A DNA stretch of 24,391 nt. Source: a virus. Below, piece after piece: positions 3,168 through 13,074 of the stretch. The DNA lies in IMG/VR virus record IMGVR_UViG_3300047554_000805, positions 1 to 24,391 of that record; one strand, given 5' to 3'. The translations under genes were made by a program, and so were the position numbers. Under the pieces are notes generated by a model. It had not been told where the DNA came from, searched no databases, and saw only the letters and a list, made by a program, of their open reading frames with translations. Numbering within the stretch: the first letter of the stretch is position 1; every line of letters begins with the position of its first letter.

Positions 3168-3850
3168 CGAATCTCTGGGAACAGGCATTCCTGGATAAAA
3201 ACACGCACATCCTCTTCGTCTAGGCCTAAACTTGCCATGACCTTAGGAGTATGTGGATTCTGCTTTTGATTTTGAGCGTAAAAATTCTGCTCAAAAGTAG
3301 TGTCTACTACAGTATTATTAGTTTCGCCTACAGTTTCCGTATAATGGTTTACTAGGATATGCGCTAGGCTAGTAATCTGAGCTAGCTCGTCTTCGTTACT
3401 AACATTACCTGCGGCCACCATGTGAGGACTAAAAATCCGCTGGGCCCAATCTGGTAATGCACGGGGTTTATGCCACTCGTACCTGCTGACTTCTTCAGCA
3501 AAGTAGTCAATCATAGGATGCTGTTTGTCTGCGGTTGGGCTGTAGTCGATGAAACAGCCTGTGATTTTATTCTTACCAGCAATCACATCAAATCCAAAAA
3601 TTGGTGCTGAGTTTTGGATGTGAGGAAAAATACAACAATGCATCATCCAAAGCCCCTTAGATTCTCTAGCATCTACTACATCAACGTGGGCTCTACGATA
3701 CGCATCGCTAGTCCAAACTCGATTAACCCAGCCTGGCTGATTGAATCGCTCCATTCCGGGCTCAAATGTTTCTACACCAGTTTCGTTAAATCGGTTTTCT
3801 AATAGCTGTTGGATACTGATAAGTGTATCCCAGACTTTACTCTCCGGCAT
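3164..3850 (-). CDS. pcyX: ferredoxin-dependent bilin reductase, PcyX/PebS type
   Basis: This enzyme family reduces biliverdin IXalpha with electrons from ferredoxin; phage PcyX and PebS make phycoerythrobilin by a four-electron reduction. The core reads PIFGFDVIAGKNKITGCF, typical of the family, with the central catalytic Asp at 88 and His71 exactly 17 residues before it, the spacing of His88/Asp105 in PcyA. The C-terminal YAQNQKQNPHTPKVMASLGL also fits. At 228 residues it is a normal length. It overlaps the heme oxygenase gene by 14 bases, which makes the substrate supply obvious: heme to biliverdin to bilin. The same pair is known from uncultured oceanic phages lacking photosynthesis genes, which is why I prefer PcyX to PebS; subfamily placement needs a tree. 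Its TAA stop lies within the following late-promoter motif. Confidence 0.85.
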   Translation of the reverse strand: MPESKVWDTLISIQQLLENRFNETGVETFEPGMERFNQPGWVNRVWTSDAYRRAHVDVVDARESKGLWMMHCCIFPHIQNSAPIFGFDVIAGKNKITGCFIDYSPTADKQHPMIDYFAEEVSRYEWHKPRALPDWAQRIFSPHMVAAGNVSNEDELAQITSLAHILVNHYTETVGETNNTVVDTTFEQNFYAQNQKQNPHTPKVMASLGLDEEDVRVFIQECLFPEIR

Positions 3851-4382
3851 AAAGGTCCTTCATCATGTCAATCGCAAATTTAAATGCGACTCTAGCTTCA
3901 TCGCCTAGATCGTCAGTGAGCTCTTCTCTGATAGAAACTTTCATAGCATCTGCATTTTCAAAATCATAAAACTTGCCACTGCTGATGTGTGCTACCTGAC
4001 GTTTAATAATTTGACCTCCGTTGAGGTCTCCCATGTGACGACAATACATATGAGCTTTGATCAAATGTTTTCTACTAGGATCGTTGGCAATCTCGTGTAG
4101 GTATTTTTGATAAGCAAGTGTCGCTGGTGTTAGATAACAGTAGGTCCCGTCATCTAATTCCCAGAAGTCTGCCGCAATGGCTTTTAATCTTGGAAGGTCA
4201 GGCATCTTATCAAAGAATCCCTGACGTTTTCCATACCACTCAATTGGATCATATATCGCTAATAGATTATAAAGGTAATTCTTATAATCTTGTTTCTCAA
4301 TTTTACCGCTTAGTAGCAGTTTAGCGAATTTTGTTGTTTCTGCTTCGTGATGCAGATCTTTGGTAATTTCTCTTAGGCTCAT
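3837..4382 (-). CDS. ho: heme oxygenase (biliverdin-forming)
   Basis: Heme oxygenase cleaves heme to biliverdin, CO and ferrous iron, using reduced ferredoxin in bacteria. The N-terminus LREITKDLHHEAE gives the proximal heme-ligand His11, four residues after the Thr as in other heme oxygenases. The distal helix carries GDLNGGQ (118-124), the family signature GDxSGGQ with Asn for Ser. Residues 25-50 (SGKIEKQDYKNYLYNLLAIY) are also typical. At 181 residues it is slightly shorter than common bacterial enzymes but looks complete. Its ATG overlaps the clpS stop as ATGA, and its end overlaps pcyX, so the three genes are translationally coupled. It feeds biliverdin to PcyX. Confidence 0.92.
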   Translation of the reverse strand: MSLREITKDLHHEAETTKFAKLLLSGKIEKQDYKNYLYNLLAIYDPIEWYGKRQGFFDKMPDLPRLKAIAADFWELDDGTYCYLTPATLAYQKYLHEIANDPSRKHLIKAHMYCRHMGDLNGGQIIKRQVAHISSGKFYDFENADAMKVSIREELTDDLGDEARVAFKFAIDMMKDLYAGE

Positions 4383-4681
4383 TCTTCTTCCACTTTGATT
4401 TGCAGTGGGAATCCATTGTTCCTAGCTAATGCTGTAGCTTCGACAGCTTTAACTTCTGCAATCTCAAAGCTGTAAACACCCGCGATACCACTGCCTTCAG
4501 TATGTATCCTCATTGTGATGTCTTTGGCTGTTTCTTGGCTGTGTTTAAAAATTTCAGTCAAGATGCTGATTACGAAATCCATCGGAGTATGATCATCATT
4601 TAATAGAACAACTTTCCATCTCTTAGGCTCTTCAATTTTCTGTTTAATCTTTTCGTCAAGTTTAACGTCTAACTCTGCCAT
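4379..4681 (-). CDS. clpS: ClpS adaptor for N-degron proteolysis
   Basis: ClpS delivers proteins with destabilising N-terminal residues to ClpAP. The body KVVLLNDDHTPMDFVISIL is unmistakable. N-degron pocket residues are all present: Asn28, Asp29, the gatekeeper Met34 and His60, with the same 32-residue spacing as Asn34/His66 of E. coli. The N-terminal 20 residues, charged and flexible, are the part that enters the ClpA pore. Length (100 residues) is normal. It is first in the clpS-ho-pcyX operon, with GGAG eight bases before the ATG. A phage copy could redirect host proteolysis, for example towards host proteins unwanted during infection (inference). Confidence 0.92.
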   Translation of the reverse strand: MAELDVKLDEKIKQKIEEPKRWKVVLLNDDHTPMDFVISILTEIFKHSQETAKDITMRIHTEGSGIAGVYSFEIAEVKAVEATALARNNGFPLQIKVEEE

Positions 4682-4734: not shown

Positions 4735-5175
4735 TTACTTAACTTCTACGATGTCAATTAATCGAGGCTTCTTGTCTTCCGGAATTTCTCTTTCGATAGA
4801 AATCGTTAAGATTCCGTCTTGAATTTCAGCACCCTTGACAATCATATGTTCAGCTAAGGTAAACTGACGAACAAAGTCACGACTACTTAGGCCTTTATGT
4901 AGATATTGGCGTGAAGTAGATTCGTTTGGTGTTGCACTTTCTCCCTTGATAGTTAGTTGATCTCGATCAACTTCAACAGTGATTTCATCCTTTTTAAAGC
5001 CAGCTACTGCGACTTCAATAGAATAATGATCATCGTCTGTTTTAACTACATTATATGGGGGATAGTTTGTGCTGAGTTGATTAGCGAATCTGCTGTCGAA
5101 TGTATCAAACAAGCGGTCGAAACCAACTAGTGCTCTGTTTAGAGCTTGTGTGTCAAATCGTGTTAATGCGTTCAT
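4735..5175 (-). CDS. hsp20: Hsp20 small heat-shock chaperone
   Basis: Small heat-shock proteins hold unfolding proteins in a refoldable state as large oligomers. The alpha-crystallin domain spans about residues 40-130: YNVVKTDDDHYSIEVAVAGF, DEITVEV, LTIKGE, FVRQFTLAEH and GILTISIERE. The C-terminal RLIDIVEV provides the I-x-I motif that bridges dimers. The N-terminal 35 residues are hydrophobic and aromatic-rich as usual. Length is 146 residues. Hsp20 genes are common in T4-like marine phages. The gene has its own TATAAATA late promoter and a folded leader whose last hairpin buries the AAGGAG ribosome site, suggesting heat-controlled translation. Confidence 0.93.
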   Translation of the reverse strand: MNALTRFDTQALNRALVGFDRLFDTFDSRFANQLSTNYPPYNVVKTDDDHYSIEVAVAGFKKDEITVEVDRDQLTIKGESATPNESTSRQYLHKGLSSRDFVRQFTLAEHMIVKGAEIQDGILTISIEREIPEDKKPRLIDIVEVK

Positions 5176-5179
5176 AGTT

Positions 5180-5251
5180 TTCTCCTTTATTAAGCAAGAA
5201 CGTTTTGGGCAACTCGCCCATTTTGTAAGACCCGTTTGGCATCCTACAAAA
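5180..5251 (-). promoter_or_regulatory. candidate ROSE-like RNA thermometer in the hsp20 leader
   Basis: The minus-strand leader folds into three back-to-back hairpins. Hairpin 1 (5251-5221) has an 11-pair stem, TTTTGTAGGAT with GTCTTACAAAA. Hairpin 2 (5220-5206) is TGGGC-GAGTT-GCCCA. Hairpin 3 (5200-5180) pairs TTCTTGCTT with AAGGAGAA around an AATA loop, leaving one G bulged; the SD core AAGGAG lies inside the helix, six bases before the ATG. The UUGCU with a bulged G opposite the SD is the signature of ROSE thermometers, which control small heat-shock genes. Folding was done by eye. Confidence 0.65.
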
Positions 5252-5252
5252 T

Positions 5253-5260
5253 TATTTATA
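5253..5260 (-). promoter_or_regulatory. T4-type late promoter TATAAATA for hsp20
   Basis: A perfect match to the T4 late consensus TATAAATA on the minus strand, with start expected near 5247, so most of hairpin 1 of the leader would be transcribed. It overlaps by four bases a 22-base perfect palindrome. Confidence 0.7.
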
Positions 5261-5278
5261 TTTGATTAATCAAATATA
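5257..5278. repeat. 22-base perfect palindrome between guaC and hsp20
   Basis: The core TTTGATTAATCAAA extends to 22 bases of perfect twofold symmetry. It begins two bases beyond the guaC stop and touches the hsp20 late promoter. It may be a protein-binding site or a weak A/T-rich terminator hairpin (nine pairs, TTAA loop) for the guaC transcript. Confidence 0.6.
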
Positions 5279-12054: not shown

Positions 12055-12381
12055 GAATTTTGATACAACAAAATTGAGCATTTCTTCGAAATCTAAATTT
12101 TGGTATTCTTTACCTAATTGGTACTCTTGATCTATGGTTTCTTCCCAACCTTGTATGCCAACTAGCTCAAAAATTTCTTTTTTGGTTACCGACTCTTCTC
12201 TCATGTTACTAACCCAAAGAACTGTCATGAAGCTTAGGATGAAAACGTGTTCGTCGTCCCAGATGCCGTTGTTCTCACACCATTCGACTGTACGTTTCAA
12301 ATAGTAATCGATGTCTTCCAATCGATTTTCTAATTGTATTATCCATTCTTTTGTATGTTCTCGAGTCCACCGTTTGATCAT
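12052..12381 (-). CDS. hypothetical protein downstream of iscA
   Basis: Not recognised. The 109-residue product is rich in Trp, Glu and aromatic residues and looks all-helical (TREHTKEWIIQLENRLEDIDYYLKRT and later helices), soluble and acidic. There are no metal-binding Cys clusters, only a single Cys. It overlaps iscA as ATGA and closes the membrane peptide-iscU-iscA operon, so a role next to iron-sulfur assembly, or simple co-expression, is possible. Confidence 0.65.
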   Translation of the reverse strand: MIKRWTREHTKEWIIQLENRLEDIDYYLKRTVEWCENNGIWDDEHVFILSFMTVLWVSNMREESVTKKEIFELVGIQGWEETIDQEYQLGKEYQNLDFEEMLNFVVSKF

Positions 12382-12704
12382 ACTCTAAAACTTTCTCCGC
12401 ACCCACATCGATCCTTTTCATTTGGATTCATAAACTCAAAGCCTTCGTTAAGGCCTTTCTTTTGCCAATCCATGATAAGACCGTTGACATAAGGGATAGA
12501 TCTTCCATCTACCCAAACTTTCACGCTGTGACTTTCATAGACAAATTGATCTCTAGTGATGGGAGCGATATCAACGAATTCTAATACATAGGCCAATCCA
12601 CTGCATCCTGTAGTTTTGACCCCTATCCGTATGCCTATACCCCGTCCACGCTTTTCTAATTGTTCTTTGACTTTTTCAGCGGCTATTTCAGTTAGAGTTA
12701 TCAT
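12378..12704 (-). CDS. iscA: A-type iron-sulfur carrier IscA/ErpA
   Basis: A-type carriers accept iron-sulfur clusters (or iron) and pass them to target enzymes. The three ligand cysteines are present: Cys34 in TTGCSGLAYVLEF, and Cys100 and Cys102 in RCGCGESFRV, almost the same positions as in E. coli IscA (35, 99, 101). The N-terminus ITLTEIAAEKVKEQL is typical. Length 108 residues is normal. The start lies 17 bases inside iscU with AAGAAG as ribosome site. The D-R-C-G-C-G-E-S-F end fits both IscA and ErpA; no choice can be made by eye. Confidence 0.9.
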   Translation of the reverse strand: MITLTEIAAEKVKEQLEKRGRGIGIRIGVKTTGCSGLAYVLEFVDIAPITRDQFVYESHSVKVWVDGRSIPYVNGLIMDWQKKGLNEGFEFMNPNEKDRCGCGESFRV

Positions 12705-13074
12705 GCTTCTTTCGATAATCTTCTACTGCGGCTTTGATAGCATCCTCAGCTAGAATACTACAATGTATTTTAACTGGAGGTAGTGCAAGTTCCTCAGCTA
12801 TCTGTGTGTTCTTAATAGTTATAGCTTCGTCAAGACTTTTGCCCTTGACCCACTCTGTAACAAGGCTTGAACTTGCAATGGCTGATCCACAGCCATAAGT
12901 TTTAAAACGTGCATCAGTGATAATGCCGTCTTCGACCTTGATCTGTAGTTTCATAACATCACCGCAGGCAGGCGCTCCAACCATACCGGTACCAACTGAG
13001 GTATCTTCCTTAGAGAAAGAACCCACGTTGCGTGGGTTCTCGTAGTGGTCTATAACTTTATCAGAATACGCCAT
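12688..13074 (-). CDS. iscU: IscU iron-sulfur scaffold
   Basis: IscU is the scaffold on which [2Fe-2S] clusters are built with sulfur from IscS. All functional residues are there: Cys37 and Asp39 in GAPACGD, Cys62 in YGCGSA, Cys105 in HCSILAE, and LPPVK at 99-103, the chaperone (HscA) docking motif. The N-terminus YSDKVIDHYENPRNVGS is classic. At 128 residues it equals the bacterial protein. No cysteine desulfurase, HscA/B or ferredoxin gene lies in the window, so the phage protein would have to work with host IscS. It begins two bases after the stop of the 38-residue peptide and overlaps iscA. Confidence 0.94.
   Translation of the reverse strand: MAYSDKVIDHYENPRNVGSFSKEDTSVGTGMVGAPACGDVMKLQIKVEDGIITDARFKTYGCGSAIASSSLVTEWVKGKSLDEAITIKNTQIAEELALPPVKIHCSILAEDAIKAAVEDYRKKHDNSN

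Follow-up and report, generated by a model that had tools for sequence, protein, structure and literature searches.

A ROSE-like leader ahead of hsp20, dnaK, and groES genes in phages, a likely RNA thermometer

The window analyzed here (24,391 nucleotides, i.e., the whole stretch taken from IMG/VR virus record IMGVR_UViG_3300047554_000805) carries a gene for an IbpA-like small heat-shock protein whose leader (5247-5173, minus strand) consists of three hairpins lying between a T4-late-type promoter octamer, TATAAATA, and hsp20 (Table 1). The predicted transcription start is 6 nt past TATAAATA, which would place hairpin 1 at the extreme 5' end of the RNA; the octamer has a chance expectation of 1.9 occurrences in the window. 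A perfect 20-base palindrome, ATATTTGATTAATCAAATAT (window 5258-5277), overlaps the upstream end of TATAAATA. By eye, L001, the closest relative, lacks it, so an operator specific to the phage or mere chance may account for it. Downstream of hsp20 on the minus strand lie genes for ClpS (4379-4681; PF02617, E 3.1e-30) and heme oxygenase (3837-4382; PF01126, E 3.8e-24), which could form one operon with it.

Table 1. Features of the hsp20 leader and gene in the window
Feature	Position	Strand	Detail
T4-late-type promoter octamer TATAAATA	5253..5260	(-)	transcription start predicted at ~5247
Hairpin 1	5225..5247	(-)	GUAGGAU-G-CC AAAC GG-GUCUUAC; G bulged between U and CC, cf. Rfam ROSE_3
Hairpin 2	5206..5220	(-)	UGGGC GAGUU GCCCA
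Hairpin 3, presumed thermosensing hairpin	5180..5200	(-)	UUCUU-G-CUU AAUA AAGGAGAA
UUGCU ROSE motif	5193..5197	(-)	bulged G at 5195, opposite AAGGAG
AAGGAG, Shine-Dalgarno sequence (SD)	5182..5187	(-)	
CGUUC, 5' arm of alternative outer helix	5198..5202	(-)	can pair with 5173-5169
GAACG, 3' arm of outer helix	5169..5173	(-)	start-codon G and the four bases after it
hsp20, IbpA-like small heat-shock protein	4735..5175	(-)	146 aa; Pfam PF00011, E 1.6e-22; phrog_432 (Hsp20), E 2.7e-41

Elsewhere in the window, two minus-strand genes resemble, by eye only, those for the curli pore proteins CsgG (1-1038) and CsgF (1049-1534), which have been reported for phage Melnitz (PMC9004378). A gene for a NifU N-terminal (IscU-like) protein (12688-13074, minus; PF01592, E 1.4e-53) adjoins one judged IscA-like by eye (12378-12704, minus), and the pair likely represents phage genes for iron-sulfur cluster assembly. 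Another phage locus (L160, 13632-13996, minus) carries an alphaproteobacterial-type tmRNA, probably permuted; a tmRNA has also been reported for Melnitz.

The original prediction of three hairpins between a perfect promoter and hsp20, with UUGCU and its bulged G opposite AAGGAG, held as described. Folding of 5251-5170 returns three successive hairpins with a minimum free energy of -22.6 kcal/mol and a z score of -3.35, and 1 of 200 shuffles was as good. This score is due to hairpin 1 together with a UUUU/AAAA foot, without which z becomes -0.36. Hairpin 3 by itself reaches -2.6 kcal/mol at 37 C (z -0.59), a value equaled by 48 of 200 shuffles, and the window holds four copies of the pattern TYGCT-N2-14-AGGAG, of which one lies ahead of a gene start. 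The single sequence therefore does not support hairpin 3. Single-sequence folding was accordingly rejected as proof, and the claim for hairpin 3 rests on homologues rather than on the window sequence alone.

Among phage hsp20 genes gathered from IMG/VR by Hsp20 protein alone, and thus blindly with respect to the leader (80 loci, 64 distinct leaders read), U(U/C)GCU followed by AGGA stands in 62 of the 64 leaders. The variable base (36 U, 26 C) matches the notation of the ROSE literature, and the two exceptions (L043 and L045) read CCGCU, with the G still kept. A leader-blind DnaK scan found the motif in 55/55 distinct phage leaders, with hairpin 1 evident and hairpin 2 in some. Since the DnaK proteins of this set are 78-100% identical, these leaders are related by descent; their hairpin 1 has diverged, with compensation. 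Leader-blind scanning for groES gave the motif at 9/20 phage loci. Homologues that break the UUGCU:AAGGAG pairing without compensation, named beforehand as an outcome that would refute the thermometer, were looked for in the hsp20 and dnaK sets, and that outcome was not met. The original prediction was confined to hsp20; with dnaK and groES added, the scope is larger than proposed.

All 12 phage-collection records read carry the element. It is found in the SAR11 phages HTVC008M, Mosig, and HTVC115P, the Methylophilales phage Melnitz, the cyanophages S-PM2, P-SSM4, Syn19, and S-H38 (phages of Synechococcus and Prochlorococcus), the rhizobial phages Phosso and Atu_ph07 (Rhizobiales), and phage C48C1. 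The element is conserved across phages of widely differing hosts, cultured ones among them, and the same type of leader precedes hsp20, dnaK, and some groES genes in hundreds of other phages. The twelfth record, Pseudomonas phage Y7 (ROSE_3, 69 bits), probably reflects host DNA in an unverified record and was excluded as phage evidence.

The motif also picks out chaperone genes when genes are ignored. A gene-blind IMG/VR scan for TTCTTGCTT plus 2-8 bases plus AAGGAGAA yielded 84 sites in the loci kept, 72 of them before chaperones (58 hsp20, 11 dnaK, and 3 groES), whereas a scrambled control motif with the same bases rearranged yielded 53 sites and none before a chaperone. In the C-variant scan (AACTCGCTT..AAGGAGA), 67/80 sites preceded hsp20, and three truncated hsp20 starts and a few neighbors were also recovered. 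When only those genes of the fetched phage loci that have an AGGAG SD were compared, the motif was present at 300/310 chaperones versus 7/345 others, and scrambled motifs gave no chaperone match. The former count includes motif-selected loci, so the leader-blind figures are the cleaner ones.

R1, a covariance model built from the phage element, found the leader in the window at E 2.8e-9 and nothing else there below E 0.01. On 20 whole phage records it gave 24 matches at E up to 1.3e-3, all of which were placed relative to genes: 23 precede chaperones (hsp20, dnaK, and one groES) and one precedes a small unidentified gene (L635). Matches read at E > 0.01 stood before unrelated genes or no gene.

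Small proteins without a known family lie behind the same element at L399, L424, L456, L434, L446, and L635 (G003, near 126.7 kb). At L399, L424, and L456 the small gene adjoins hsp20 directly on its upstream side and that hsp20 lacks a leader of its own; therefore, the element heads the operon. An identification of the six small proteins as phasin-like, made by eye, was dropped after Pfam scans of four gave no support. The element also precedes an AhpC/TSA peroxiredoxin gene (L385) and a rubredoxin gene just upstream of hsp20 (L459), cases that hint at a possibly broader stress gene set.

For 22 close relatives, RNAalifold recovered hairpin 1 with its bulged G, hairpin 2, and a CGUUC:GAACG helix enclosing both SD and start codon. 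The covariation score, which supports hairpin 1, was 0.260 versus 0.150 for shuffled alignments (0/500 shuffles as high). The outer helix is present in all 22 and shows one compensated change (L020, CAUUC:GAAUG); in 6 of the 22, hairpin 2 has AU in place of GC through changes in both arms. Hairpin 2 occurs in close relatives, in hsp20 and some dnaK leaders, and is missing from others. The stretch ATGAACGCATTAACA (window 5161-5175) is near-identical base for base in hsp20 genes with only 50-60% protein identity and is kept even in L009, L014, and L016, none of which has CGUUC; pairing with CGUUC thus accounts only partly for its conservation.

Hairpin 1 covaries strongly in 22 diverse two-hairpin leaders, with a score of 0.516 versus 0.163 for shuffled alignments (0/500 shuffles) and pairs that occur as up to six standard types. 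These leaders were picked for a detectable hairpin 1, which inflates the percentage of paired positions and affects covariation less. Cognate arms formed 5.65 of 6 pairs versus 3.44 for non-cognate arms. The hairpin-1 shape with its bulged G was recovered in 192/239 non-redundant leaders versus 8% of shuffled ones, and most of the remaining leaders show a hairpin-1 variant by eye. The sequence of this hairpin (Y-G-CC/GG-G) is conserved beyond what pairing requires. The first broad alignment (A2) had mis-gapped the right arm of hairpin 1 and was replaced by A3, in which the G of column 34 is invariant, although the rows had been found via the motif. Compensatory changes in hairpin 3, proposed earlier as a check, proved scarce; little covariation is seen there because the SD is fixed, and support for this hairpin consists of conservation and gene association. 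A late-type or sigma70-like -10 box lies close to hairpin 1 in 156 of the 192 leaders tested, the late-type box in 100 versus 8 in shuffles. The sequence, structure, conservation, and gene association of the leader are thereby shown.

These features are those by which ROSE elements are recognized. In the SD-proximal hairpin, U(U/C)GCU faces the SD at the leader-blind counts given above, and an unpaired G lies within the motif/SD helix. Of the two to four hairpins that define the class, the stable one at the 5' end is hairpin 1, followed by an optional hairpin 2 and by hairpin 3, and the downstream gene encodes a small heat-shock protein (Pfam PF00011), with an extension to dnaK and groES. An Rfam search at gathering thresholds gave no match in the window, nor did 13 phage loci give a ROSE match at threshold. 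Against the 43-bit threshold of RF02523 (ROSE_3), the window scored 16.0 bits, Melnitz 34.1 (E 7e-4), Atu_ph07 28.0, and C48C1 26.8. The sub-threshold alignment of the window places its hairpin 1 on ROSE_3 hairpin 1 (GAUGCC..GGGUC), unpaired G included; for Melnitz, ROSE_3 aligns this hairpin with its bulged G and also the hairpin that pairs UYGCU with the SD. Other below-threshold matches, to freshwater-2 (15.7 bits, threshold 49.9), STnc300, and MIR2617, were dropped. Because the score threshold is failed, the element is not filed as a ROSE_3 member; it is best regarded as a ROSE variant outside that family.

Among the closest known counterparts is the Pseudomonas ROSE_3 element of the ibpA leader (PMC3669281), which shares the two-hairpin plan, an xGAU-G-CC/GGGUCx hairpin 1 with the same bulged G, and a second hairpin that pairs U(U/C)GCU with the SD directly ahead of an IbpA-type gene. 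The two differ in that the phage element resides in phage genomes, also before dnaK and groES, scores below the Rfam threshold, and is served by late-type or sigma70-like promoters rather than sigma32. The phage hairpin 3 is weaker and A/U-rich, and the additional hairpin 2 is optional; window hairpin 3, at its predicted 37 C energy, is less stable than the Pseudomonas thermosensing hairpins, given as -4.1 to -7.6 kcal/mol (PMC3669281). In the enterobacterial ibpA/ibpB ROSE (L246, L254), likewise an SD-proximal hairpin, UUUCUUGCUU..AAGGAGAA ahead of ibpB matches the phage motif almost letter for letter, but R1 matches are marginal (E 0.03-0.3) and the genes are chromosomal ibpAB. Apart from chance sites, a motif-only scan of bacterial genomes recovered hsp20 leaders in just four cases, of which two are enterobacterial ibpB.

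Another bacterial likeness is the alphaproteobacterial family around G019 (MarineAlpha5_Bin9), in which a UAUGCC..GGGU hairpin 1 and CUUGCUUA..AAGGAG precede hsp20 and R1 reaches E values down to 1.4e-9. R1 matches 52/60 genomes of this family, usually once per genome, and the best 20 loci, which were read, all lie before hsp20; no dnaK match was found in the family at E 0.001. At the same E value with stricter filters, R1 matched 7/398 genomes drawn across the phylum. The element is thus a member of the ROSE class known from small heat-shock genes of proteobacteria. Its form is commoner in phages than in our bacterial sample, and phages add dnaK and groES; we make no claim as to whether phages or bacteria had it first.

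We interpret the leader as a phage version of a ROSE-type RNA thermometer, a reading that we consider likely (probability roughly 0.8). The sequence and structure of the original prediction are supported by homologues, while the temperature response remains unproven: heat-responsive translation is inferred, not shown. The inference is drawn because the Pseudomonas leader, with the same two-hairpin plan, has been shown to be thermoregulatory, its hairpin 2 melting while hairpin 1 stays folded (PMC3669281). It is by this analogy that we infer repression through SD pairing, derepression on heating, and what hairpin 1 does. At normal host temperature, hairpin 3 would hide the SD, aided in the window by the CGUUC:GAACG helix over the start codon. 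Warming, or ribosome competition acting on the weak helix, would open hairpin 3 and allow translation of the chaperone, with hairpin 1 remaining folded to guide hairpin 3 folding and shield the 5' end. In the many phages with a late-type promoter, phage development would set when the gene is transcribed, and temperature when it is translated.

Folding across temperatures, also suggested at the outset, neither strengthens nor weakens this reading. Nearest-neighbor calculations for the window predict a gentle opening, with the unpaired probability of the SD rising from 0.42 at 5 C to 0.57 at 42 C; a shuffled upstream sequence gave 0.57 at 20 C. No sharp thermal transition was obtained in the window, the phage set, or the Pseudomonas-type ROSE control, and thermal folding was not used as evidence either way, given that the control behaves no better. 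A bulged G with non-canonical contacts falls outside the nearest-neighbor folding model. The literature searched contained no experiment that varied temperature for a phage leader.

Among the alternatives, chaperone titration deserves most attention. Here the phage Hsp20 would bind the ROSE-like leader and repress translation until aggregates draw it off, so that the signal would be protein misfolding in infection rather than temperature alone, and the common leader would put dnaK and groES under the same control. IbpA of E. coli, Cedecea, and Vibrio represses its own translation via the 5' UTR, for which R93 is essential and, in E. coli, an aromatic residue at position 34 is also needed (PMC10474464). 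In the phage Hsp20s, the equivalent of R93 is Arg in 174/188 (R99 in the window), that of Y34 is aromatic (Y/F) in 188/188, with Y in the window, and the R97 position is R/K in 155/188; the conservation of the hairpin 1 sequence beyond pairing need would also fit a bound protein. On the other hand, the charge of K98 is not conserved (S/T predominates, and the window has Q). Lys replaces Arg at the R93 position in 14/188, a substitution that abolishes repression in E. coli (PMC10474464), and the kept residues may serve chaperone function instead. Moreover, whether IbpA reads features common to the phage leaders is not established, and in the absence of binding data we consider titration possible but less likely than not. 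It can coexist with the thermometer, and a bolder reading that we regard as no more than possible joins both in a phage chaperone regulon, i.e., one ROSE-like element read by temperature and by phage Hsp20. Besides hsp20, dnaK, and groES, its members might occasionally include small accessory or peroxiredoxin genes. If so, aggregates formed during virion production would draw Hsp20 off the leaders, and all of the phage's folding machinery would rise together, independently of host sigma32.

A constitutive leader, in which hairpin 1 guards the 5' end and UYGCU is a mere spacer without a switching role, appears unlikely. It would accommodate the position of hairpin 1 at the predicted 5' end, the ability of 5' stem-loops to stabilize mRNA (PMC3669281), and the predicted weakness of window hairpin 3. 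A general stabilizer, however, would neither track chaperones nor retain the bulged G, whereas the motif is nearly absent from other AGGAG-SD genes of the same phage loci (7/345) and 23/24 strong R1 matches in whole phage records precede chaperones. Chance complementarity between a pyrimidine-rich spacer and the SD could be entertained on the z score of -0.59 for window hairpin 3 alone, but is refuted by the comparative data and all but ruled out, with the motif in 62/64 hsp20 and 55/55 dnaK leader-blind leaders and the scrambled motif at 0/53.

Within the literature searched, ROSE has been tied to bacterial small heat-shock genes, and the novelty of our findings is a ROSE-type element in phages, with phage promoters and with dnaK and groES as targets. 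That literature, which mostly lacks subscription journals and preprints, yielded no report of a ROSE element in a phage, and papers on cyanophage small heat-shock proteins and on Melnitz, the latter discussing phage riboswitches, mention no thermometer. The lambda cIII RNA thermometer (Altuvia 1989, cited in PMC4166951) is likewise a temperature-sensing mRNA structure in a phage; however, its structure is unrelated, its translation falls at high temperature, and it controls a lysis-lysogeny gene rather than a chaperone.

To conclude, marine T4-like cyanophages have hsp20 among their core genes (PMC3037559). The reason for its retention by phages and the timing of Hsp20 synthesis have remained open, a role in capsid scaffolding having been suggested. 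The leader described here predicts that translation would require either a threshold temperature to be exceeded or folding stress, and that phage promoters would set the time of transcription. Many phages thus probably turn on their own folding helpers through an RNA switch, which, if true, would bear on how ocean warming affects infection.
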